Shown here: positions 20,331 to 63,633 of the stretch, one piece after another
How the letters are laid out: every line of letters begins with the position of its first letter
Numbering within the stretch: position 1 is the stretch's first letter
Assembly: GCF_040361275.1 (NCBI RefSeq)
Contig: NZ_APNH01000004.1
Span: forward strand, 372,001 to 436,000
Direction of reading: 5' to 3'
Length of the DNA stretch: 64,000 bases
Origin: Salinisphaera sp. T31B1
GTDB lineage: Bacteria; Pseudomonadota; Gammaproteobacteria; Nevskiales; Salinisphaeraceae
Translations under genes and position numbers: made by a program
The notes under the pieces: model-generated
Databases searched by the model: none
The model's input: the letters and a program-made list of their open reading frames with translations, nothing else
Told to the model about the DNA's origin: nothing

Positions 20331-21650
20331 ATGCGTCAATTCGAAGTCGCCGCAGGCGGCTCGCTTGCCGGCACCCTGCGCGTACCGGGCGACAAGTCGG
20401 TCTCGCACCGCGCGATCATGTTCTCGGCGATCGCCGAGGGCAGCTCTCGCATCACCGGGTTTCTGGAAAGCGCGGATTGTCTGGCCACCCTGAAAGCGTT
20501 CGAGTCCATGGGCGTGGATTATCGAAGCGAAGGCGACGCGCTGATCGTCGACGGCCGCGGCCTGCACGGGCTCTGTGCGCCCTCCGGCGCGCTGGACCTG
20601 GGCAACTCGGGCACGTCCATGCGCCTGTTGTCCGGCCTGATGGCAGGCCAGAGCTTCGATAGCGTGCTCACCGGCGATGCCAGCCTGTCGCGGCGGCCGA
20701 TGCGCCGGGTGATCGATCCGTTGACCCGCATGGGCGCGCGGATCAGCGCGCAGGATGGCGAGCGTGCACCGCTGACCATCCACGGCGGCCAGACATTGCA
20801 GGCCATCGACTACACGCCGCCGGTGGCCAGCGCCCAGATCAAGTCGTGCGTGCTGCTGGCCGGTCTCTATGCACAGGGCACGACGACGGTCCATGAGCCG
20901 GGCGTCAGCCGTGATCATACCGAACGCATGCTCGATGCTTTCGGTGTACGCCTCGAGCGCGAAGGCGCCACGCTCAGCCTGGCCGGCGGCCAGCCGTTGC
21001 ATGCGTTCGACGTCGCGGTGCCCGCGGATCTGTCTTCGGCCGCGTTTTTCCTGGTCGGGGCCTGTATCGGCCACGGCAGCCGCCTGCGCCTGACCGATGT
21101 CGGCATCAACCCTACGCGCCGTGGCGTCATCGACATCCTGCAAGCGATGGGTGCGCGGATCACGTTGTCCAACGAGCGCCTCCAGGCCGGCGAGCCCGTC
21201 GCCGACATCGACGTGCAGGCCAGCGACCTGCACGGTATCGATATTGGCGCCGACATGGTCGAACTGGCCATCGACGAATTTCCGGCCCTGTTCGTGGCCG
21301 CAGCCTGTGCACGCGGTACCACCCGGCTGACCGGCGCGGCCGAGCTGCGGGTCAAGGAGTCGGACCGTATCGCGGTGATGGCCGAGGGGTTGCGCACGCT
21401 CGGCGTCGAGGTCAGCGTGGCCGACGACGGAATGACCGTCGTCGGCCGGCCCGATGCCGACGCCTTTCACGGCGGCCGGATCGCCAGTCACGAAGATCAC
21501 CGCATCGCCATGGCCTTTGCCATGGCCGGTCTGCGCTCCTCGGCGCCGATCGTGATCGACGACTGCGACTACGTCGATACCTCGTTCCCAGGGTTCGTGG
21601 CGCTTGCTCGTGGTGTGGGCCTTTCGATCGCGGCACGGCAGGCTTCGTGA
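20331..21650 (+). CDS. aroA: 3-phosphoshikimate 1-carboxyvinyltransferase (EPSP synthase)
   Basis: This is the sixth step of the shikimate pathway, joining phosphoenolpyruvate to shikimate 3-phosphate. It has 439 residues counted from ATG 20331; a TTG at 20325 is an alternative. The N-terminal GTLRVPGDKSVSHRAIMFSAIA holds substrate-binding Lys and Ser-Arg residues. LGNSGTSMRLLSGLM and the C-terminal ELRVKESDRIAVMAEGL are the two PROSITE-type signatures, and SHEDHRIAMAFAMAG follows. GDASLSRRPM suggests the ordinary glyphosate-contact segment. The gene shares GTGA with cmk, indicating coupled translation. Confidence 0.97.
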   Translation: MRQFEVAAGGSLAGTLRVPGDKSVSHRAIMFSAIAEGSSRITGFLESADCLATLKAFESMGVDYRSEGDALIVDGRGLHGLCAPSGALDLGNSGTSMRLLSGLMAGQSFDSVLTGDASLSRRPMRRVIDPLTRMGARISAQDGERAPLTIHGGQTLQAIDYTPPVASAQIKSCVLLAGLYAQGTTTVHEPGVSRDHTERMLDAFGVRLEREGATLSLAGGQPLHAFDVAVPADLSSAAFFLVGACIGHGSRLRLTDVGINPTRRGVIDILQAMGARITLSNERLQAGEPVADIDVQASDLHGIDIGADMVELAIDEFPALFVAAACARGTTRLTGAAELRVKESDRIAVMAEGLRTLGVEVSVADDGMTVVGRPDADAFHGGRIASHEDHRIAMAFAMAGLRSSAPIVIDDCDYVDTSFPGFVALARGVGLSIAARQAS

Positions 21651-51563: not shown

Positions 51564-51885
51564 CGCCTGTTCAGAGCACAGGGCAAAGGCCACGCTGCCG
51601 GCATATTCAAGCTGCCGCGGCAACGGCGGTGGGCGCGCAGGTAATCTCACGCGCAACTGATGGTTCGACAGGGCGGGATGCCGCGATCGGGGCCGGCCGC
51701 TCGGAGCCGTCCGTGCGATATGCCCGAATAGGGCGGTAGAATGCGCGCAATCGGCACAGTTTGGCCGCCGGCCGCAGCGTTCGTCGACGGTATGTGTCCG
51801 GCGCGTGCGTGATCGGCCCGGTGGCAGAGCGTTTAGCGCTGCGGCCGTCATTTGTTCTGGAACGCATTCACTACCGGACCTGTCC
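51564..51885. other. Upstream region of cysC with a weak promoter
   Basis: This 322-bp gap holds no ORF of family type. TAGAAT at 51737-51742 is a possible -10 box for cysC, with only TGCGAT at 17 bp as a -35; it would give a leader of about 137 bases. No terminator is evident after the sirtuin gene. Confidence 0.35.
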
Positions 51886-52530
51886 ATGAGCGAACACAAG
51901 AGCAGCAATATCGTCTGGCACAAGGGCACTGTCGAACGGCCCGAACGCGAGGCCAGCAATCGCCACCGCGGTTTCACCGTCTGGTTCACCGGGTTGTCCG
52001 GCTCCGGCAAGTCGACGCTGTCGGTCGCGCTCGAGCAGCGGCTCTACGACATGGGGTGTCGCACCTATCGCCTGGACGGCGACAACGTTCGCAGCGGCCT
52101 GTGTCGGGATCTGGCCTTCAGCCCCGAAGACCGGATCGAGAATATTCGCCGTATCGGCGAAGTAGCCAAGCTGTTCCGGGATGCCGGCATCATCAACCTC
52201 ACGGCGTTCATCTCGCCGTACCGTCAGGATCGCCAGATGGCACGCATGCTCTCGGAGCGCGATGCCAACGATTTCATCGAGATCTATGTGGATGCACCGT
52301 TGTCGGTCTGTGAGGACCGCGATCCGAAAGGGCTTTACAAGAAAGCGCGGGCCGGCAGCATTCCCAACTTCACTGGCATCAGTGCGCCGTACGAGGCCCC
52401 GGAGAACCCGGAGGTGCACGTACACACCGGAGACCATTCGATCGAGGAATGCGTGGACCAGATCGTGGCCCACCTGCTCGAGCACGAATACCTGCATGCC
52501 GAGCTCGCGGCGCGCGCGACCCGGCCCTGA
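51886..52530 (+). CDS. cysC: Adenylylsulfate kinase
   Basis: APS kinase phosphorylates adenylylsulfate to PAPS for sulfate assimilation or sulfation. It has 214 residues. The P-loop is GLSGSGKST at 36-44. [18 protein letters not shown], the [16 protein letters not shown] segment and [13 protein letters not shown] (with the active-site Ser) are classical. It stands alone, without cysD or cysN. A free-standing cysC just before a polysaccharide locus might supply PAPS for sulfation of surface glycans, but no sulfotransferase is visible in the window. Confidence 0.95.
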
Positions 52531-53969: not shown

Positions 53970-55205
53970 ATGATGAAATACGATTTTGGGGGAGTGATCG
54001 CGCGTAGTGCAACCAGGGTTGCGAGCGTGCGAACGGCGTTCATGCTGGCTTTATTGGCCGCACTGGCCGGTTGTGCCCTGCCGGGTTACGACTCCGGGGC
54101 CGTCGATGGCAGCTGGTATAACTTCGGGCGCGACAAGACCGCCACGTACGACGAAGAGCTCTCCAAGCAGGATATCGATTACGACCCGCGCGTGATCCAG
54201 ATCACCCCGTGGTTGATCCGGCATCAGGATCAGGAACGCGCGCAGCAGACACTCAGCGACGCGCAGCAACAAATATCGGCGGCGCCGGCAACGCCGATGA
54301 ACTACACGATCGGCGCGGGCGACGTGCTGCAGGTCATTGTGTTTGGCCATCCGGAACTAACGAATCCGGCAGGAACCGATAGTAGCGAAGGGATTCAAGG
54401 TCAACTGGTCGGCGCGGACGGCACGATCTTCTACCCCTACGTCGGCGAGATCACGGCCGAGGGGTTGACACTCAAAGCACTACGAAAACGACTGGCGGAG
54501 GGGCTATCTCAGTATATCCGCGAGCCACAGGTCGATGTACGCGTACGTCAATATCGCAGTCAGCGCGTGTACATATCCGGGGATATTGTCAAACCGTGTA
54601 CCGTGCCGATCACGGACGTATCGTTGTCGGTACTGCAAGCGCTCGACCAGTGCGACACACTTGCCACCAAGGAAGGCGGTGGCGTGGGCGTGCAGAACGT
54701 CATCCTCATTCGCGATGGTCAGTCGACGCCGCTGGATCTGAACCAGATCTATGCGACCGGGCGGCCCGTACCGCTGCGGCCCGGCGACCGTCTGCTTATC
54801 GACGATAGCGCCAACCGCGTGTTCATGGTTGGCGAGTTCACCGAACAGATGGCGTTGCCGTACACCACCGGCGGCATGTCGCTGAACGACGCCATCGCCG
54901 ATGCCGGCGGTGTCAGGCTCGACAGTGCCGACACGAGCACTATTTACGTCATCCGCGGTTTCGTCGACAGCGTGCCGGAGCGTGACGGCGGCGTACGGAC
55001 TGTATTGCGGCCGAACGTATACAAGCTGGACGCCAGCAACGTGAGCGGCCTGCTGCTAGCCAACCAGTTCAAACTGCAGCCGCGCGACGTGGTATTTGCC
55101 GCGCCGGCCAGCTTCGTCAACTTCAACCGCGCTCTGGCGCTCATCCTGCCGTCGGTGGATCTGCTGTTCCGCAGCTACCTGATCTACGACCGGACCGGCA
55201 ACTAA
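53970..55205 (+). CDS. wza: Polysaccharide export outer-membrane lipoprotein, Wza-type
   Basis: This is the outer-membrane translocon for capsule or exopolysaccharide, 411 residues. The signal peptide ends in LAGC, so the mature lipoprotein starts at about Cys35. The polysaccharide export motif YTIGAGDVLQVIVFGHPEL lies near residue 111. SLBB/soluble ligand-binding repeats follow (YISGDIVKPCTVPIT and VFMVGEFTEQMALPYTTGGMSLNDAI). The C-terminal amphipathic helix (LALILPSVDLLFRSYLIYD) would line the outer-membrane pore. The 230 bp before it contain no credible gene. It precedes wzc by 17 bp. Confidence 0.95.
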   Translation: MMKYDFGGVIARSATRVASVRTAFMLALLAALAGCALPGYDSGAVDGSWYNFGRDKTATYDEELSKQDIDYDPRVIQITPWLIRHQDQERAQQTLSDAQQQISAAPATPMNYTIGAGDVLQVIVFGHPELTNPAGTDSSEGIQGQLVGADGTIFYPYVGEITAEGLTLKALRKRLAEGLSQYIREPQVDVRVRQYRSQRVYISGDIVKPCTVPITDVSLSVLQALDQCDTLATKEGGGVGVQNVILIRDGQSTPLDLNQIYATGRPVPLRPGDRLLIDDSANRVFMVGEFTEQMALPYTTGGMSLNDAIADAGGVRLDSADTSTIYVIRGFVDSVPERDGGVRTVLRPNVYKLDASNVSGLLLANQFKLQPRDVVFAAPASFVNFNRALALILPSVDLLFRSYLIYDRTGN

Positions 55206-55222: not shown

Positions 55223-57433
55223 TTGGCTATTTCAGCTACCGACGCGACGGCGCAGCCGGATACACACTCTGAAGACAAGGAGATCGATCTCCGCGAATAC
55301 ATCGGGGTAGTGTTAGAGGGCTGGCCCTGGATTTTGGCGCTGGCGTTGTTGGGGTTGATCGCTGCAAGCTACCTTGCCTGGAAAACGGCACCCGTTTATC
55401 AGGCCACATCACTCATGCGGGTAGAGCAAGGCCAGAACATGGCGCCCCAGGCGTTCATGGAGCAGCAGATTAATTCTGGTGGGAATATCAAAGCCGTCAG
55501 CGCGGAGGCAACAGTACTGCAATCGCGCTCCGTCGTGGGTGACGCGGTCGACGACCTGCATCTGAGAGTTCGGGCCAAGCCGAGTTACTTTCCCGTTATC
55601 GGCGAGCCTATCGCTCGTTTCGTAACCGCGAACATGACCGGCACATTAAACGTGCCGTTTTTCGGGAGGTATGCCTGGGGTAACGAATCGGTCAACGTCA
55701 GCCGAATGCAACTCCCGGACAATATTCAGGCCGCGAAATTCAGCCTCGTCGCAGGCGAAAACGGCGCTTACCGGCTGCTGGACGACCAGGGCCAACCCGT
55801 TTTGGATGGCCAGGTTGGATCCACCGCGTCCGGGACTCTGCCGGGCGGTGCAGCGATCAAGCTATTCGTGGCATCACTGAAGGCGAAGCCGGGCACGTAC
55901 TTTGATGTGAGCTACGTGCCCAAGCCCGCGGCCATCGCGGGCGTCCAGAGCCGTATTCATATCGAAGAGAGGCCTGCCGGGTCGGGATTGTTGAGCCTAC
56001 GTTATACGGGGTCATCGCCCGCCGAGGCGCAGCGCCAGTTGGACGCTATCATGGCAGCGTACCTTCAGATGAACGTTGAGAAGCAGTCTGAGCAGGCCCA
56101 GCGGCGTCTCGAGTTTTTGAAAGAGCAGCTTCCCGAGATTCGGGCAGAGCGAGACGCTGCGGAAAAGAAGCTCCGCGACTACCAGACCGAAAGCGGCACG
56201 CTGGACCTGAGCGCCGAGGCGCAGTCGATTCTTCAACGCATGACCAATATCGACCAACAGGTAGCCCAAACAGAATTGGAACGTCAGGAGCTGTTGCAAG
56301 AGTTCACTAATCGCGCTCCGCAGGTCCAAGCGGCGAACGACAAGCGGGCCAGCCTGGTCCAGCAACGCAAAGAGCTTGAAGCGCAGTTGAAGAAGCTACC
56401 TAAAGCGGAATCGAAGCTGTTGGAGTTTCGTCGGGACGTCGAAGTAAATGACGTGCTCTATACACAACTGCTCAACACGTCGCAGGGGCTGGAGATTTCC
56501 AAAGCCGGCATTACGGGCGTCACCCATATCGTTGACGCCGCTTATGCGCCCTCGGGCAAAGTCGCGCCAAAGCGTGTTGTATGGGCGTTAATGGGAATTG
56601 CGCTCGGTATTGTTATGGCGATTCTGCTGAGTATCCTGCGAGCGGCGTTGCGTGCCACGCTGGATAACCCCGAGGACATCGAATCGCGGTTTGGGCTGCC
56701 GGTGTATGCCACGGTACCCTTTTCTGCCAAAGCTGCAAAAAAACAGCGCCGCAATAGCTTCCAACTTCTGGCGACGCAAGAGCCAGACGAGCCAGCGGTA
56801 GAAAGTATCCGTAGCCTCAGAACAAGTTTGCAGTTCGCCATGTTGGAGGGCGACACAAAGTTCATCGCTATCACGGGCCCCACACCCGGCTGCGGCAAGA
56901 GCTTCATTTCGTCGAACACCGCGGCTCTGATTGCCGATACCGGCAAACGTGTGCTGCTTATCGATGCCGATATGCGTCGTGGCCAGCTCGCCCGAAGCTT
57001 GGATCTTCAGCGACGGCCGGGTTTTTCCGAAGTGCTTGCGGGTGAGAAGAATGCATTCGACGTCATCCAGCAAACGCCCGTATCCAACATGGATTTTATG
57101 AGTGCCGGAAACCGCCCTCCTAATCCAGCGGAGTTGCTCATAGCCAAGAATTTCGAAGTGCTCAAAACCGACGTAGCAGCGCGGTACGACTATGTTATCT
57201 ATGACCTGCCGCCGGTCCTGAACGTCACGGATGCGAGCATCGTCGCCCGCAAAGTGGCGGCGACATTCCTTGTCGTGCGGAGCGAACATAGCTCCGGCTC
57301 CGAAGTGGAGCAGGCCATTCGGCGCTTGCAGCGTGACGGTATCAAAGTCGCAGGAGCCATCTTCAACGGTTTGAAAGTTAATCGCCTCCGGTACGGACGG
57401 GGTCGTTACAGTCACTATTCCTACAGGTATTAG
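55223..57433 (+). CDS. wzc: Polysaccharide co-polymerase and tyrosine autokinase, Wzc-type
   Basis: This 736-residue inner-membrane protein controls polysaccharide chain length and export. A Wzz domain has transmembrane segments near 33-52 and 452-475 with a long periplasmic coiled region between (about 270-400). The BY-kinase domain follows: Walker A GPTPGCGKS at 552-560, Walker A' LLIDADMRRG, Walker B YVIYDLPPV. A C-terminal tyrosine cluster (YGRGRYSHYSYRY) is the autophosphorylation tail, the target of the Wzb phosphatase. The start is a TTG at 55223 after GACGGG; no ATG or GTG is closer to the conserved sequence. Confidence 0.94.
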   Translation: MAISATDATAQPDTHSEDKEIDLREYIGVVLEGWPWILALALLGLIAASYLAWKTAPVYQATSLMRVEQGQNMAPQAFMEQQINSGGNIKAVSAEATVLQSRSVVGDAVDDLHLRVRAKPSYFPVIGEPIARFVTANMTGTLNVPFFGRYAWGNESVNVSRMQLPDNIQAAKFSLVAGENGAYRLLDDQGQPVLDGQVGSTASGTLPGGAAIKLFVASLKAKPGTYFDVSYVPKPAAIAGVQSRIHIEERPAGSGLLSLRYTGSSPAEAQRQLDAIMAAYLQMNVEKQSEQAQRRLEFLKEQLPEIRAERDAAEKKLRDYQTESGTLDLSAEAQSILQRMTNIDQQVAQTELERQELLQEFTNRAPQVQAANDKRASLVQQRKELEAQLKKLPKAESKLLEFRRDVEVNDVLYTQLLNTSQGLEISKAGITGVTHIVDAAYAPSGKVAPKRVVWALMGIALGIVMAILLSILRAALRATLDNPEDIESRFGLPVYATVPFSAKAAKKQRRNSFQLLATQEPDEPAVESIRSLRTSLQFAMLEGDTKFIAITGPTPGCGKSFISSNTAALIADTGKRVLLIDADMRRGQLARSLDLQRRPGFSEVLAGEKNAFDVIQQTPVSNMDFMSAGNRPPNPAELLIAKNFEVLKTDVAARYDYVIYDLPPVLNVTDASIVARKVAATFLVVRSEHSSGSEVEQAIRRLQRDGIKVAGAIFNGLKVNRLRYGRGRYSHYSYRY

Positions 57434-57506: not shown

Positions 57507-59321
57507 ATGCTCCACTCCGTCCGTCAAATGCTAGCGTTGTTCTCGCCCGCCGAGCGCGTACGCTTTATCGGTGTAGTCTTTGCAATGCTAGCGATGGGGT
57601 TATTACAGATGGTGGGGGTGGGCGTCGTGCTTCCGTTCGTTTCGCTTCTGTCCAATCCTTCCAGCGTCGAGCAGAATGCCTGGCTAGCCTGGTCGTATTC
57701 GTTGTTCGGTTTCAATTCAGTCAATGGTTTCCTGATTTTTATTGGCTCCGTGCTATTTTTCGTTTTGGTTGCCACTAATGTATTTACGGCGATCACAATA
57801 TGGCTTATGACGCGATTCGCCTGGGGCGTGCAGAACCGCATTTCCACGCGCTTACTATCAGGTTATCTATACCAGCCGTACGAGGCGTTCCTTAATAGAA
57901 ATTCCGCGGATATTGGTAAGAATATCCTTATTGAGTCGCAGCAATTCGCCAGCGGCGTGCTTATGCCGGCATTACGTGCGCTGGCATTCGGAATCACGGT
58001 TCTTATGATTGTCGGCTTCTTGCTGTGGCTTCAGCCACTTTTAGCCTGTGCCGCCGCGGCCGTATTTATCTGTGCTTACTTGCTGGTTTACCTCACCGTT
58101 CGGCGGAGACTGCTTCGTATCGGTTCGGCGCGTATGACTGCCAATACCGAGCGCTTCAAGGCGGTGAGCGAAGCGTTCGGGAGCGTCAAGGAGGTCAAGG
58201 TTACGGGACGGGAAAACGCGTTTTTGGACCGTTACAGACCGTCCGCTACGGTATTCGCCACCAGCATGGCGCAAAGTCAGGTGTTGGCCCAAGTGCCGAA
58301 GTTCGTCGTCGAGGGATTGGCTTTCGGGCTCGTCATGGCGTCGATGCTTTATCTCCTGTCGGCCGGCGGTGGGGTGCAACAGGCTTTGCCTGTGGCCAGC
58401 GTGTTCGTTCTCGCAGGCTATCGTTTGTTGCCCGCACTGCAGAACGTGTATCAGGGTTTTGCGCAGTGGCGCTTCAACCAATCGGTCATCGATGCGCTGG
58501 TCAAGGACTTGACTGCCCATGGCGCATCGTCCGAGCACGAGAGAGCGAGCACCGACGAACTATCTGAAGACAGTCCTTCTCGAATGCAATTCGACAACAG
58601 CATCGAGCTCAGGCACGTGACTTATCGCTATCCGCAAGCGGCAGGCGCCTCGTTAAAAGACATCTCGATTCGAATTTCCAAAAATAGTTTCGTTGCCCTC
58701 ACAGGCGCGACCGGTGCCGGTAAGACGACACTTGCGGATATTCTGCTTGGCCTGCTAGAGCCCAGTGAAGGATCGATGTTGGTTGATGGCCGGGAAGTCG
58801 ACCGGCACTCGCGACGTGAGTGGCAGCTAAACCTTGGCTACGTTCCTCAAGATATCTATCTCACCGACAGTACGATTGCCAGCAATATCGCGTATGGTCT
58901 CGACCCGAAAATCATCGATTATCAAGCAATTAAAAAGGCGGCGCGAATCGCCAATATCGATCGATTCATTGAAGATAATTTACCGCAAGGTTATGAAACG
59001 ATTGTGGGCGAGCGCGGGGTTCGTTTGTCCGGTGGTCAAAGGCAACGGATTGGTATAGCCCGTGCGCTGTATTACGATCCCGACGTTATCGTGTTAGACG
59101 AGGCGACGTCTGCACTAGATAATGAAACGGAGCGGCGTATCGTCAACGAACTGGACGCAATGCGCGGCGGCCGGACCCTCATCGTAATTGCCCACCGACT
59201 CACCACAGTGCAGAAATGTCACAAAGTTTTCATGCTGGAAGATGGGCATTTGGCTGCCGAAGGTTCCTACGATGAAGTTGTGATGGGTAACAGTGGATCT
59301 GCCAACGTGGCGGGCGCTTGA
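57507..59321 (+). CDS. ABC exporter (fused membrane and ATPase domains), PglK/MsbA-like
   Basis: This is a 604-residue half-transporter. The N-terminal membrane domain (about 1-320) has six predicted helices. The nucleotide-binding domain shows Walker A LTGATGAGKTT, the Q-loop in LGYVPQDIYLTDSTI, the signature RLSGGQRQRIGIARAL, and Walker B VIVLDEATSALD. The whole resembles lipid-linked oligosaccharide flippases such as PglK, so it probably flips undecaprenyl-linked repeat units here in place of a Wzx flippase. The DNA is less GC-rich than upstream. A 250-bp gap with TATACATAAT-like sequence (59458-59467) follows. Confidence 0.9.
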   Translation: MLHSVRQMLALFSPAERVRFIGVVFAMLAMGLLQMVGVGVVLPFVSLLSNPSSVEQNAWLAWSYSLFGFNSVNGFLIFIGSVLFFVLVATNVFTAITIWLMTRFAWGVQNRISTRLLSGYLYQPYEAFLNRNSADIGKNILIESQQFASGVLMPALRALAFGITVLMIVGFLLWLQPLLACAAAAVFICAYLLVYLTVRRRLLRIGSARMTANTERFKAVSEAFGSVKEVKVTGRENAFLDRYRPSATVFATSMAQSQVLAQVPKFVVEGLAFGLVMASMLYLLSAGGGVQQALPVASVFVLAGYRLLPALQNVYQGFAQWRFNQSVIDALVKDLTAHGASSEHERASTDELSEDSPSRMQFDNSIELRHVTYRYPQAAGASLKDISIRISKNSFVALTGATGAGKTTLADILLGLLEPSEGSMLVDGREVDRHSRREWQLNLGYVPQDIYLTDSTIASNIAYGLDPKIIDYQAIKKAARIANIDRFIEDNLPQGYETIVGERGVRLSGGQRQRIGIARALYYDPDVIVLDEATSALDNETERRIVNELDAMRGGRTLIVIAHRLTTVQKCHKVFMLEDGHLAAEGSYDEVVMGNSGSANVAGA

Positions 59322-59570: not shown

Positions 59571-60830
59571 GTGACTAACCAAGAAAGGCTCTCAGTTAAG
59601 AAATCCACCCTGCGCGGCGCTGTAGAACTTTCCGGGGCGAAAAATAGCGCGCTTCGTCTACTGGCTGCAAGTATCTTGACGCAAGAGGCTGTTGTTCTAG
59701 AGAATTACCCGCAGCCGCTGCTCGATGCGCAAGTGCACGTAGATATGCTGAATAAGCTCGGCAAAACAACGAATTTCTTCGGCGATTCTGGCGTTCGGAT
59801 CAGTGAATGCAGTGGGCTCAGTAGCAACCTTGAATGGGACGGACGTTCGATTCGCAATACGCTTCTTATCTTGGGAGCGCTTACAGCACGATTCGGCTAT
59901 GGGCGCGTTCCATTGCCGGGTGGTTGCAAGTTAGGTGAGCGTAAATACGACTTACATGTGTATGTTCTTCAAACACTGGGCGCGCGAGTATGGGAAGAGG
60001 GCGAATATCTGTGTGCAGAGGCACCCGGCGGGTTGGTTGGCGCAGAGATTTTCTTGCCATTTCGATCCACCGGCGCGACTGAGAACGCGATTCTCGCTGG
60101 TGCGCTTGCAAGGGGGCTTACTCGGATCTGGAATCCGCATGTGCGACCGGAGATTTTGGACCTGATTGAACTGCTGCGTGGTATGGGTGCCCAGATTGCT
60201 GTCTTCGGCCAGCAGCACATTGAGATAAAAGGTGTTGAGGGTCTCCGCGGTGTGCAGCACAGGGTGATCCCGGATAACATGGAGGCGATAACTTGGCTTG
60301 CGGCCGGCGCCATTACCGGCGGGGACGTGGAGATCAAAAATTTCCCGTACGGCGATCTCGAGGTCGTGCTTGCGCATCTCAGGGCGGCGGGCGCCAAGTT
60401 ATATCGCGGAGAAGACTCGCTGATCGTTCGCGGCGAAGCTTGCTATCCGCTGGAAGTGAGCACGGGTCCGCATCCTGGAATCAACTCAGACGTGCAGCCG
60501 ATACTAGCCGCTTGGGCTGCGAGTGCGTGGGGAGAGTCGCGTATCGTGGATCTCCGGTTTCCTGGCCGCTATGGTTACGCGGCAGAAATGGGCCGGATGG
60601 GTTTGCAGTACGAAGTTGATGGCGACATGCTCAAGATACATGGTAACGGAGGCGTTCTGACCGGGGCGCAGGTCCGGGCGATCGATCTGAGAGCTGGAGC
60701 CGCCCTTGTTCTGTGTGGTCTGATGGCGGATGGCGAAACGATTATCGACGATGCGTGGCAGGTATCCCGTGGATATGTCGGTTTTGCCGATAAGTTGAAG
60801 GCGCTCGGAGCGGATGTTGCGTTTGTCTAG
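59571..60830 (+). CDS. MurA-like UDP-N-acetylglucosamine 1-carboxyvinyltransferase paralogue in a polysaccharide locus
   Basis: This 419-residue enzyme of the EPSP synthase fold is related to MurA, which adds enolpyruvate from PEP to the 3-OH of UDP-GlcNAc. All the key residues are present: Lys24-Asn25 in LSGAKNSAL (E. coli Lys22-Asn23), Cys119 in PLPGGCKLGERKYD (Cys115), Arg124 (Arg120) and Asp307 in NSDVQP (Asp305). It should therefore be active. The start is GTG 59571 with GAGAAGG upstream; GTG 59565 is too close to that site. It overlaps the MurB-like gene by 17 bases. Placement among export and glycosyltransferase genes argues for a second copy devoted to a polysaccharide sugar, though the housekeeping murA cannot be seen here. 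Confidence 0.85.
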   Translation: MTNQERLSVKKSTLRGAVELSGAKNSALRLLAASILTQEAVVLENYPQPLLDAQVHVDMLNKLGKTTNFFGDSGVRISECSGLSSNLEWDGRSIRNTLLILGALTARFGYGRVPLPGGCKLGERKYDLHVYVLQTLGARVWEEGEYLCAEAPGGLVGAEIFLPFRSTGATENAILAGALARGLTRIWNPHVRPEILDLIELLRGMGAQIAVFGQQHIEIKGVEGLRGVQHRVIPDNMEAITWLAAGAITGGDVEIKNFPYGDLEVVLAHLRAAGAKLYRGEDSLIVRGEACYPLEVSTGPHPGINSDVQPILAAWAASAWGESRIVDLRFPGRYGYAAEMGRMGLQYEVDGDMLKIHGNGGVLTGAQVRAIDLRAGAALVLCGLMADGETIIDDAWQVSRGYVGFADKLKALGADVAFV

Positions 60831-61794
60831 TATTTCGGCAAAGGCGTCGATCGCGGGAGAACTGCGCCGTCTGCTGCCGGGCGCTGTGTCGCGTGATGTG
60901 CCGTTGTCTTGGATCAGTAGGTGGCAAATTGGCGGTACGGCTGACGTTGTTGTTCGTCCGAGAAGTATTGATGAGCTGAGTAAGGTTCGTGCATGGATCT
61001 CTGGGCACGGTCTTGCTCATATGGTTATTGGCGAGACGAGCAACCTGTTATTCGCCGATGAAGGATTGCACGTTATTTGTGTGCAAATGGGTTCGGATTT
61101 CGCTGATGTAAATATCGAGGGGCGCCGGGTCGAAGCGCAGGCGGGTGCATGGGTGCCGGGGTTCGCGCGCAGGACCATGCAAGCGGGGTTAACGGGCGCC
61201 GAACACATTGCCGGTATCCCTGGCGCTCTGGGCGGACTGGTCTGCATGAACGGCGGCAGCCAGCGAAAGGGTATCGGCAGTTCTATAGTGCAAGTGCTCA
61301 GCGTCGACCGGGCCGGTCATTGTGTGACGCGAACCCGCAATGAATGTGAATTCGGCTATCGAAAATCGGTTTTTCAGGAGAACGGCGAGGTCATTGCGCG
61401 CGCAACTTTCGAATTCGACCAAGCTCAGGACCGAGCGGGCGTTCGTCGCGAGATGCTAAGAATACTGAGTACCCGTCGCAAAAAATTCCCGCGAAAGCAG
61501 CCGAATTGCGGCTCAGTATTCAAAAGTGACCCAGCGATGTATGAGGACTACGGGCCCCCCGGCGAAATCATAGAATCCCTTGGGTGGAAAGGTGTCCGAG
61601 TCGGCGGCGCGCAAGTCTCCAACGACCATGCCAATTTCATTATTAATACTGGGTCGGCAACCTCTAAAGACGTGTTGACACTAATTTCCCGTATCCGGGC
61701 GAACGTATTTTCGGAAACAGGTTACGAGATGGTTCCGGAAGTCCTGTTTGTTGACAGTTCTGGTCGCATCACTCCGGCGACGGCGGAAGGCTAG
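60814..61794 (+). CDS. MurB-like UDP-N-acetylenolpyruvoylglucosamine reductase paralogue
   Basis: This 326-residue FAD enzyme is related to MurB, which reduces the enolpyruvyl ether to a lactyl ether with NADPH. SRWQIGGTADVVV and MVIGETSNLLF are the FAD-binding segments; GIPGALGGLVCMNGGS follows. GYRKSVF, the proton-donor Ser234 in NCGSVFKSDP and Glu309 in PEVLF are all kept. The compact form, without the extra Tyr loop region, resembles type II MurB. ATG 60814 lies inside the end of the MurA-like gene, so the two are translated together and probably act in sequence to make a UDP-muramic-type sugar. Confidence 0.85.
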   Translation: MLRLSSISAKASIAGELRRLLPGAVSRDVPLSWISRWQIGGTADVVVRPRSIDELSKVRAWISGHGLAHMVIGETSNLLFADEGLHVICVQMGSDFADVNIEGRRVEAQAGAWVPGFARRTMQAGLTGAEHIAGIPGALGGLVCMNGGSQRKGIGSSIVQVLSVDRAGHCVTRTRNECEFGYRKSVFQENGEVIARATFEFDQAQDRAGVRREMLRILSTRRKKFPRKQPNCGSVFKSDPAMYEDYGPPGEIIESLGWKGVRVGGAQVSNDHANFIINTGSATSKDVLTLISRIRANVFSETGYEMVPEVLFVDSSGRITPATAEG

Positions 61795-61834
61795 TGGTTC
61801 TCACGAACTATATGGCGCCGTGCGGATCGTGAAT

Positions 61835-62884
61835 ATGAAAGCCAGCGAAGCTGGAATCCCACGTGTCAGTGTTGTCTGTGCCTGGTACAACCGTGCCGAC
61901 TATCTGACCGATACGATGGAATCGCTGCTAGCGCAGACGTTTACAGACTATGAAATCATACTGATAAACGACGGGAGTACTGATCCGCGGGTAAGGCGGT
62001 TGCTGCAAGGCTACGCCGTAGACTCTCGGGTTCTCGTGCACTCGATTCAGAACAGCGGTTTCGTCAAGGCAATTAGCTATGGTGTGAGCTTAGCTCGCGC
62101 TCCCATTATCGCAATACAAGGCGCCGGCGACGTGTCGTTTCCAGAGCGGCTCGCCAAGCAATACAAGCTGCTGAAATCTGACGCGCGGCTCGCCGGAGTG
62201 ATTTGTCACGTGCGTAGTCGAACGATCGGGGAAGGGAACGACGGTTCCAGCCACGTTATCAATGACCAGCCCGACCGTTTTTATCACAGCGACCTAATGC
62301 AGCGACGAAATTTCATCACGCACGGCGAGATGATGTTCCGAAAAGATATATACGACCGAGTGGGTGGGTATCGCGTTCCGTTCACGTTCGCTCAAGATCG
62401 TGATCTGTGGTTGCGGATGTCTCAGCATGGCGACTTCGCCACCTGCCCCGAAGTATTATACGAGCGACGAATCTTTGAAAATGGAGGTGTTGCAGCCGAT
62501 CTTCCGAAAATAATGTCACAACGAATTCTATCCGCCTTTGCTCGAGACTGCGCTCGACAACGGCAAATATTCGGTTTTGATTGGGTCGATATTTTCGGTG
62601 ATCAGGCGCCCCTGTTTCGTCCGCGTAGCAAGCTTATATCCAAGCGGTTAGCAGTATATTCTTTGGCCTGCCTGTTAAATAACGATATTCAAGGCTGTAA
62701 ACTATTTTCGAAGATGTCACGGAATGAATGCTTGACCCCATATTCGTTACTGGCACAAGCAGTAGTATTAGGTGCCAGCCACTCGTCAATGTGTAAAAGC
62801 ATTTTTCGATTGATGTTAAGTCGGACCAGTATTGCGCCTATTGACTGCCCAGCGGCTCTAAAAAATCTTATAAGTCGAAAATAA
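61835..62884 (+). CDS. Family 2 glycosyltransferase
   Basis: This 349-residue GT-A-fold glycosyltransferase would add a sugar to the lipid-linked repeat unit. PRVSVVCAWYNRADYLTDTMESLLAQTF and ILINDGSTD are the nucleotide-sugar-binding signatures. GGYRVPFTFAQDRDLWLRMSQHG carries the ED-like acceptor-side motif. The place usually held by the metal-binding DxD (as in DADD) reads QGAGDVSFPERL, so only the last Asp remains. The donor and acceptor sugars cannot be read from sequence. ATG 61835 is chosen; GTG 61829 is possible. The frame overlaps the MurB-like gene only through a shadow extension. Confidence 0.85.
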   Translation: MKASEAGIPRVSVVCAWYNRADYLTDTMESLLAQTFTDYEIILINDGSTDPRVRRLLQGYAVDSRVLVHSIQNSGFVKAISYGVSLARAPIIAIQGAGDVSFPERLAKQYKLLKSDARLAGVICHVRSRTIGEGNDGSSHVINDQPDRFYHSDLMQRRNFITHGEMMFRKDIYDRVGGYRVPFTFAQDRDLWLRMSQHGDFATCPEVLYERRIFENGGVAADLPKIMSQRILSAFARDCARQRQIFGFDWVDIFGDQAPLFRPRSKLISKRLAVYSLACLLNNDIQGCKLFSKMSRNECLTPYSLLAQAVVLGASHSSMCKSIFRLMLSRTSIAPIDCPAALKNLISRK

Positions 62885-63141: not shown

Positions 63142-63633
63142 ATGAGCACCTTACTTGGAGCGTTTAAACGTCACGCGCTAGGCGGTGTTTCGGCACGCCT
63201 TGACGTGTATCTTTTTTTGATTCGTTATTTTAGAAGAAAAAATAAATTAAATTTTGCTCGTTTTTTCAGTAAGCGGTTGGAAATAAAATATGGGTTGTTT
63301 GTTTCCGAGAGGGCGGAGATTGCGAGAACAGTCAAATTCCCTCATCCGACTGGAATAGTTATAGGTGATGGGGTTGTCATTGAGGATAATGTAGTAGTTT
63401 ATCAAAACGTGACAATAGGCGGCGCAAGAATAGGCGATTGGCAGAAAAATAATTATCCGAAAATACGTCGAAATACTGTGATCTTCGCGGGTGCCGCCGT
63501 TCTAGGTAACGTCGAAGTGGGGCGTGACTGTGTGGTTGGTACGCTTTCAGTGGTCCTTAAAAGTGTGCCAGCTTATTCGACCGCAGTTGGCATTCCAGCA
63601 AGGGTGATCGAATCAACGACGGGGACTCGGTGA
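63142..63633 (+). CDS. CysE-like hexapeptide-repeat acetyltransferase
   Basis: This 163-residue left-handed beta-helix acyltransferase is of the serine acetyltransferase type. KFPHPTGIVIGDGVVIEDNVVVYQNVTIGG is the catalytic and hexapeptide segment (quoted here in short pieces: the His is in FPHPTGI). AGAAVLGNVEVGRDCVVGTLSVVLKSVPAYSTAVGIPARVI continues the helix. It lacks the long N-terminal helical domain of true CysE, and such short forms in polysaccharide loci acetylate sugars. The gene is markedly AT-rich. Its reading frame stays open after the stop, for 54 more codons. Confidence 0.82.
   Translation: MSTLLGAFKRHALGGVSARLDVYLFLIRYFRRKNKLNFARFFSKRLEIKYGLFVSERAEIARTVKFPHPTGIVIGDGVVIEDNVVVYQNVTIGGARIGDWQKNNYPKIRRNTVIFAGAAVLGNVEVGRDCVVGTLSVVLKSVPAYSTAVGIPARVIESTTGTR

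Follow-up and report, generated by a model that had tools for sequence, protein, structure and literature searches.

A MurA-like and MurB-like gene pair in polysaccharide loci as a probable source of lactyl-ether sugars

Introduction

The enzymes MurA (EC 2.5.1.7) and MurB (EC 1.3.1.98) together produce an (R)-lactyl ether at O-3 of a uridine diphosphate (UDP)-activated sugar, chemistry that is established for UDP-N-acetylglucosamine (UDP-GlcNAc), and a duplicate MurA for peptidoglycan is known in Firmicutes. Here we examine a MurA-like gene and an overlapping MurB-like gene at positions 59571–61794 of a 64,000-nucleotide stretch of Salinisphaera sp. T31B1 (contig NZ_APNH01000004.1, positions 372,001 to 436,000; hereafter the window), which together probably form a dedicated two-enzyme module for a UDP-activated 3-O-lactyl-ether sugar of a polysaccharide. 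We know of no MurB partner for NikO, the MurA-like enzyme of nikkomycin synthesis. NikO is described as a uridine monophosphate enolpyruvyl transferase, that is, as a MurA-like enzyme working on another nucleotide substrate (PMC6801904). The sugar 3-O-(1-carboxyethyl)-D-glucuronic acid has been reported from the exopolysaccharides of Alteromonas strains HYD657 ('deepsane') and 1644 (PMC2901825, PMC9605250).

The window pair can be set against each of these systems. Its MurA-like protein shares with MurA (TIGR01072, NF006873) the EPSP-synthase fold family, an equal length and nine catalytic positions, yet it belongs to a group that is only 36–41% identical to MurA, separates from it in trees, sits in polysaccharide loci and differs at 43 switched positions, Asn92, Arg161, Arg188 and Arg327 being among the group residues. 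The MurB-like protein has the FAD_binding_4 and MurB_C domains and the active-site Arg, Ser and Glu of MurB (NF010480, TIGR00179), but falls in a group of 33 locus-borne sequences that has an extra conserved stretch. Like NikO, the MurA-like protein may have shifted to another nucleotide substrate; the match between the two is partial (122 bits over query residues 167–417), and NikO belongs to another type of locus. The Alteromonas sugar, a lactyl-ether acidic sugar of a surface polysaccharide, is of the product type predicted for the pair and is known there from its chemistry. The literature searched, to which most subscription journals do not belong, yielded no recognised account of such a pair or of genes for lactyl-ether sugars.

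Results

Both frames of the pair are intact and overlap by 17 bases, as the initial annotation had proposed, and the motif GAGAAGG sits directly upstream of the GTG start at 59571. PF00275 (EPSP_synthase) matches residues 11–409 of the MurA-like protein, in effect the whole of it, with an E value of 2.6e-69; the MurB-like protein matches MurB_C (E 7e-29) and FAD_binding_4 (E 4e-13). The catalytic residues first read from the translations hold up in alignments, where Lys24, Cys119, Arg124 and Asp307 are invariant in 18 MurA-like sequences and Ser234 and Glu309 in 14 MurB-like ones. In a larger set of 33 MurB-like rows, Arg183 and Ser234 are present in all 33 and Glu309 in 32, the remaining row having a gap. 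The two proteins score differently with the equivalog models. The MurA-like protein reaches 368.2 bits with TIGR01072, below the cut-off of 392.7, as compared with 558.7 bits for the housekeeping MurA of the same genome. Of the five group members tested, three more also fall below the cut-off (386.8, 374.5 and 372.1), and the fifth (L083) lies just above at 393.9. The MurB-like protein, on the other hand, clears both NF010480 (267.4; cut-off 259) and TIGR00179 (194.8; cut-off 144.5).

The pair stands beside separate housekeeping genes. The Salinisphaera genome (4.36 Mb in 9 contigs, rated 100% complete) contains one other MurA, at C3:204470 and 36% identical to the window protein, and one other MurB, at C1:33935 and 30–33% identical. 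The search for a second murA and murB that had been suggested thus found both, and the possibility that the pair represents the only copies in the genome is ruled out. A third EPSP-family gene, at 20352–21599 of the window, was considered as a rival murA and proved to be AroA (TIGR01356, 417.8 bits; cut-off 287.25). All 24 bacterial genomes that were reached via the loci described below combine a group MurA with exactly one MurA of 30–40% identity, counted at E 1e-15 or better. Marinobacter segnicrescens (G395) has two group MurA copies (74% and 68%) together with one housekeeping copy (entry G395:C66:18841-20073, L193); the second group copy has no recurring cluster gene within 12 kb, and a further MurB of the group type is found on a different contig.

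In a scan of genome contigs, 43 loci had a best segment 57–73% identical to the window MurA, and among plasmid records there were seven matches of 60–80%, four of which were taken into the locus set. The group spans seven phyla (Pseudomonadota, Bacteroidota, Balneolota, Thermodesulfobacteriota, Verrucomicrobiota, Actinomycetota and Methanobacteriota), although some of its representatives come from metagenome bins and might be contaminants. The group is rare. In a class sample of 369 genomes only the Salinisphaera genome carries it, and the other MurAs among the matches listed are at most 41% identical to that of the window. None of the 16 other genomes of the family has it, their matches being of 35–37% identity only, with a second weak match (E 2.5e-5) in one of them. 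Even around known carriers it was found in just 5 of 395, 7 of 275 and 3 of 80 genomes, rates that include the carrier used as centre and are biased upwards. None of eight stretches from viral contigs was confirmed, the 10 listed of 45 phage records reach at most 39.5% identity, and a low-sensitivity search of E. coli genomes with the DNA of one group member returned no match. The murA genes in the phage-labelled records OR845006, OR846587 and MT836960 are of the ordinary kind and probably stem from host DNA, the assemblies being unverified.

Trees separate the group from the peptidoglycan enzymes. In a MurA tree of 93 rows, from which the fragments L089, L090 and L091 were excluded, a branch with 96/96 support and a length of 1.96 sets the 43 other MurAs apart. 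In a second, quick tree, two AroA and eight near-duplicate rows were left out and five Gram-positive MurAs and six group members added (L170 was excluded both here and from the residue comparisons); this tree sets 52 group members against 41 others with a Shimodaira–Hasegawa-like approximate likelihood ratio (SH-aLRT) support of 100, and the Gram-positive MurAs fall on the housekeeping side. The window protein is thus placed outside the peptidoglycan MurAs, and the distinct clade tied to polysaccharide loci that the initial annotation had envisaged was recovered: the MurA-like proteins group apart from the 43 (or 41) other MurAs, and their loci are polysaccharide loci. In the MurB tree, where row L135 was trimmed to its last 345 residues, the 33 locus-borne rows that include the window protein form a group with 100/99 support.

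The nine catalytic MurA positions (Lys22, Asn23, Arg91, Cys115, Arg120, Asp305, Arg331, Arg371 and Arg397 in E. coli numbering) are invariant in all 52 group members. A further 43 positions are switched, that is, fixed in the group (at least 95%) and rare (<15%) in the 41 other MurAs, and they include A92N, V161R, V163T, A186H, E188R, R232N, T304S, V327R, E329P, N330G and H334Y. Sixteen of the 43 lie at most four residues from a catalytic position, more than expected (hypergeometric P 8e-5), the distance being one along the sequence and not in the structure. Positions 161, 163 and 327 (V161, V163 and V327) are presumably among the annotated UDP-GlcNAc contacts; of the 14 contact positions that we take to be such, 3 are switched, which is not a strong enrichment by itself. 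One study of MurA assigns Arg91 and Val163 to the diphosphate and Asp305 to the glucosamine (PMC10500568), and inhibitor docking names Glu188, Arg232 and Thr304 in the pocket (PMC12658796). The gained arginines suggest a more acidic sugar substrate. R232 is lost alongside them, and a rearranged salt bridge would explain part of the gain. The extra stretch conserved in the group MurB-like proteins lies around residues 240–250.

Three Methanosarcina-family genomes, one of them Methanosarcina spelaei, carry a group MurA with an adjacent MurB. The M. spelaei copy is on a 29 kb contig; the other two are on 4.5 Mb contigs, which rules out contamination of one draft as the source of the archaeal genes. 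Like their relatives in the family, these three genomes contain, apart from the group MurA, a single weak EPSP-family match (29–30% identity, E 1e-11 to 1e-12), which may be AroA. Mur_ligase_C matched in none of five Methanosarcina-family genomes, the three with the pair among them, and the control was positive in 11 of 14. Since there is neither a Mur ligase nor another recognisable MurA, a peptidoglycan role is ruled out in the archaeal carriers, where the product of the pair cannot enter peptidoglycan. Dehydrogenase, epimerase, Wzx-like and glycosyltransferase genes are present in the archaeal loci, and the two besides that of M. spelaei also have a CysE-like gene.

The 48 loci studied (the window's own, four from plasmids and 43 from contigs) show a recurrent gene neighbourhood. 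A MurB-like gene is present in 40 of them, 38 by clustering and two by tblastn. Both genes are full cluster members in 36 loci. In 26 of these, MurB comes directly after MurA on the same strand, with −130 to +93 bases between them; the rest have one or two genes in between or the reverse order. Among the 25 loci that extend 6 kb or more to either side, a recurring-cluster glycosyltransferase occurs in 24, a MurB cluster member in 23 (one of the two others, L070, has a MurB-like gene by tblastn), a Wzx-like protein in 19, an epimerase-type protein in 15, a CysE-like acetyltransferase in 13 and a UDP-sugar dehydrogenase in 12. In L057, L060 and L071 a family-2 glycosyltransferase gene comes directly after the group MurA, and the stretch has no MurB-like gene.

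In the window, too, the surroundings are those of a polysaccharide locus (Table 1). Family searches confirmed the reported position of the pair between an ATP-binding cassette (ABC) transporter and a family-2 glycosyltransferase. Beyond the window the cluster continues with family-61 and family-1/4 glycosyltransferases, an EpsG-family polymerase-like protein, a sugar epimerase, a WecA-like initiating transferase and a TviB-like UDP-sugar dehydrogenase (551.6, below the model cut-off of 592). A Wza/Wzc-dependent polysaccharide locus is thus represented by Poly_export, Wzc, the EpsG-family polymerase and several glycosyltransferases, and with its Wza, Wzc, ABC transporter and EpsG-family polymerase it looks like an exopolysaccharide or capsule locus rather than an O-antigen cluster. 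The ABC transporter is probably a lipid-linked sugar flippase or exporter; a relative is present in locus L059/L218, and the 20 kb of the window's own locus (L006) contain no Wzx-like cluster member and have the transporter instead. Relatives of the family-2 glycosyltransferase come after MurB or MurA in many related loci (cluster c5, in 21 loci). The acetyltransferase reaches 114.4 bits with EpsC, below the cut-off of 150, and its CysE/EpsC-like cluster c7 recurs beside the pair in 16 of the 48 loci and in two of the three archaeal ones (for example L219:7522-8067). At its left border the locus has a G+C content of 64.5%, which drops to between 43% and 59% across most of its middle, and the two genes of the pair have 56% and 55%, as compared with 63% for the window. 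This pattern is consistent with horizontal exchange of the polysaccharide region. Outside the window, the cluster is directly followed by a pel-type operon (GH114 protein, PelB barrel, PelD and DUF3492 glycosyltransferase; L007:9695-19999, C4:454694 onward). Just upstream of the locus, at 51874–52530, lies an adenylyl-sulfate kinase gene, which could hint at a sulfated polysaccharide.

Table 1. Genes of the pair and of the surrounding polysaccharide locus in the window
Feature	Position	Strand	Details
Wza-type polysaccharide export protein	53970..55205	+	Poly_export 9.5e-25, SLBB_2
Wzc-type chain-length protein / tyrosine autokinase	55223..57433	+	WZC_N 2.5e-29; TIGR01007 above cut-off
ABC transporter, fused membrane and ATPase domains	57507..59321	+	ABC_tran 5.7e-29, ABC_membrane 1.4e-9
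MurA-like enolpyruvyl transferase gene	59571..60830	+	419 aa, GTG start; EPSP_synthase family
MurB-like FAD-dependent enolpyruvyl reductase gene	60814..61794	+	326 aa, ATG start; FAD_binding_4 and MurB_C
Family-2 glycosyltransferase	61829..62884	+	Glycos_transf_2 1.4e-20; start uncertain, frame opens at TTG 61748
Hexapeptide acetyltransferase, CysE/EpsC type	63142..63633 (= L006:10143-10634)	+	EpsC is the best NCBIfam match

A more distant pair was found on plasmid pOT1-6 of Haematobacter massiliensis (L228:6680-9023), where a much diverged MurA-like gene of a polysaccharide cluster overlaps a MurB-like gene and adjoins glycosyltransferase, dehydrogenase and epimerase genes. Its MurA-like protein is 36% identical to that of the window and 30% to E. 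coli MurA, keeps all nine catalytic positions, and has group-type residues at 11 of the 43 switched positions (including R327, S304, P329 and D325), shares 18 with other MurAs, and has Thr at 188. The MurB-like protein is 42.9% identical to that of the window. A search of the 394 genomes of the Haematobacter missouriensis family revealed one carrier of this MurA-like protein (100% identical) and two more matches at 37–38%; the match in G405 is the group copy of that genome. The variant looks like a diversification of specificity, possibly towards a further substrate.

Discussion

The most straightforward reading of these observations, proposed already in the initial annotation and in our judgement a probable one, is that the pair works as a dedicated module supplying a UDP-activated 3-O-lactyl-ether sugar to the polysaccharide. 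It is favoured by the separate housekeeping copies, the distinct MurA group, the linkage to polysaccharide genes, the kept catalytic residues, the archaeal carriers without Mur ligases, and the fact that lactyl-ether sugars of exopolysaccharides are known; the reactions themselves, the 3-position and the use in a polymer are what we infer. The MurA-like enzyme would transfer the enolpyruvyl group of phosphoenolpyruvate to the 3-hydroxyl of a UDP-sugar by means of the usual Lys, Cys, Asp and Arg, and the flavin-dependent MurB-like enzyme would reduce the enolpyruvyl ether to the (R)-lactyl ether. Next, one of the glycosyltransferases encoded in the locus would add the acidic sugar to the lipid-linked repeat unit, which would be flipped, here perhaps by the ABC transporter and elsewhere by Wzx, and exported.

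Several observations weigh against this reading. The support for the polysaccharide MurA group is weak (34/85) when the tree includes two AroA rows, a very distant outgroup. The locus-borne MurB-like proteins do not form one group either: six Bacteroidota-type rows, one of them from a gammaproteobacterium, and three others lie apart (two changes), and because of these nine rows recruitment of a MurB-like partner may have happened on several occasions. In eight of the 48 loci the available stretch lacks a MurB-like gene; L060, L085, L086 and L090 are cut short near MurA, but L071 has none despite 8 kb on both sides. The genomes of L071 (G407) and of L082 (G404) each have a single MurB, of the housekeeping type and 29–30% identical to that of the window, so that hosts of this kind would either reduce the enolpyruvyl ether themselves with the housekeeping MurB or leave it unreduced. 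Finally, the UDP-sugar dehydrogenases in the loci (n=17) are mixed, eight being nearer to the TviB type (UDP-GlcNAc), eight nearer to the UDP-glucose type and one to neither, and the gene context therefore does not name the substrate.

That the pair is a second peptidoglycan isozyme pair of the MurA2/MurZ type, merely located in a polysaccharide locus, is highly improbable. The duplicate MurA of Firmicutes provides a precedent, and every bacterial host has peptidoglycan genes such as a housekeeping MurA; however, the archaeal carriers, with neither Mur ligases nor a second MurA, already contradict this explanation, the five Gram-positive records group with the housekeeping side, the pocket residues differ, the polysaccharide neighbours recur, and the group is absent from all 16 family relatives searched. 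A further reading, an unlikely one, makes the MurA-like enzyme the central component and the reductase dispensable, so that some hosts would carry an enolpyruvyl (carboxyvinyl) ether that is left unreduced. The glycosyltransferase genes that directly follow MurA in L057, L060 and L071, and the single housekeeping-type MurB of G407 and G404, would agree with such a product, but L057 and L060 are incomplete metagenome contigs, and with a MurB-like gene in 40 of 48 loci and in the window it is neither the rule nor the case here.

The product class, a lactyl-ether sugar, is thus well supported, and the exact sugar would lie between N-acetylmuramic acid (MurNAc) and a uronic acid analogue. The former is a serious prospect that falls somewhat short of an even chance: the pair would make UDP-MurNAc itself as a polysaccharide building block, and the changed residues would do no more than adjust affinity or avoid feedback control. 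Every cell contains UDP-GlcNAc, the two proteins still score as MurA-like and MurB-like, the latter above two equivalog cut-offs, and where a locus has no MurB-like gene, the housekeeping MurB could act in its place only on a product close to enolpyruvyl-UDP-GlcNAc. Yet the 43 positions are switched almost without exception in 52 sequences from seven phyla, 16 of them near catalytic residues, four of the five group members tested score below the murA cut-off, and the switches include V161, V163 and V327, which we take to be UDP-GlcNAc contacts. The alternative, which we put forward tentatively and regard as somewhat less likely than not, is that the MurA-like enzyme was re-specified to a UDP-uronic acid, either UDP-glucuronic acid (UDP-GlcA) or UDP-N-acetylglucosaminuronic acid (UDP-GlcNAcA), bound by arginines 161, 188 and 327, and would thus yield a diacidic 3-O-lactyl uronic acid. 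The module would then provide the genes still missing for the lactyl-glucuronic acid in polysaccharides of deep-sea Alteromonas, would have crossed from bacteria into methanogenic archaea, and would have further specificity variants, such as the MurA-like protein of H. massiliensis.

In public annotation these genes, including copies on plasmids, are labelled as the peptidoglycan genes murA and murB. Matches to murA or murB in archaea or on plasmids need not mean peptidoglycan, and the switched residues offer a simple sequence mark by which a group MurA can be told from a housekeeping MurA. If the proposed function of the pair is correct, it becomes possible to test directly how lactyl-ether sugars of exopolysaccharides arise, and the natural variation of the MurA pocket might serve as a tool for making new UDP-sugars. 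A family that is essential for the bacterial cell wall would then have a second, transferable role in making the acidic sugars of the cell surface.

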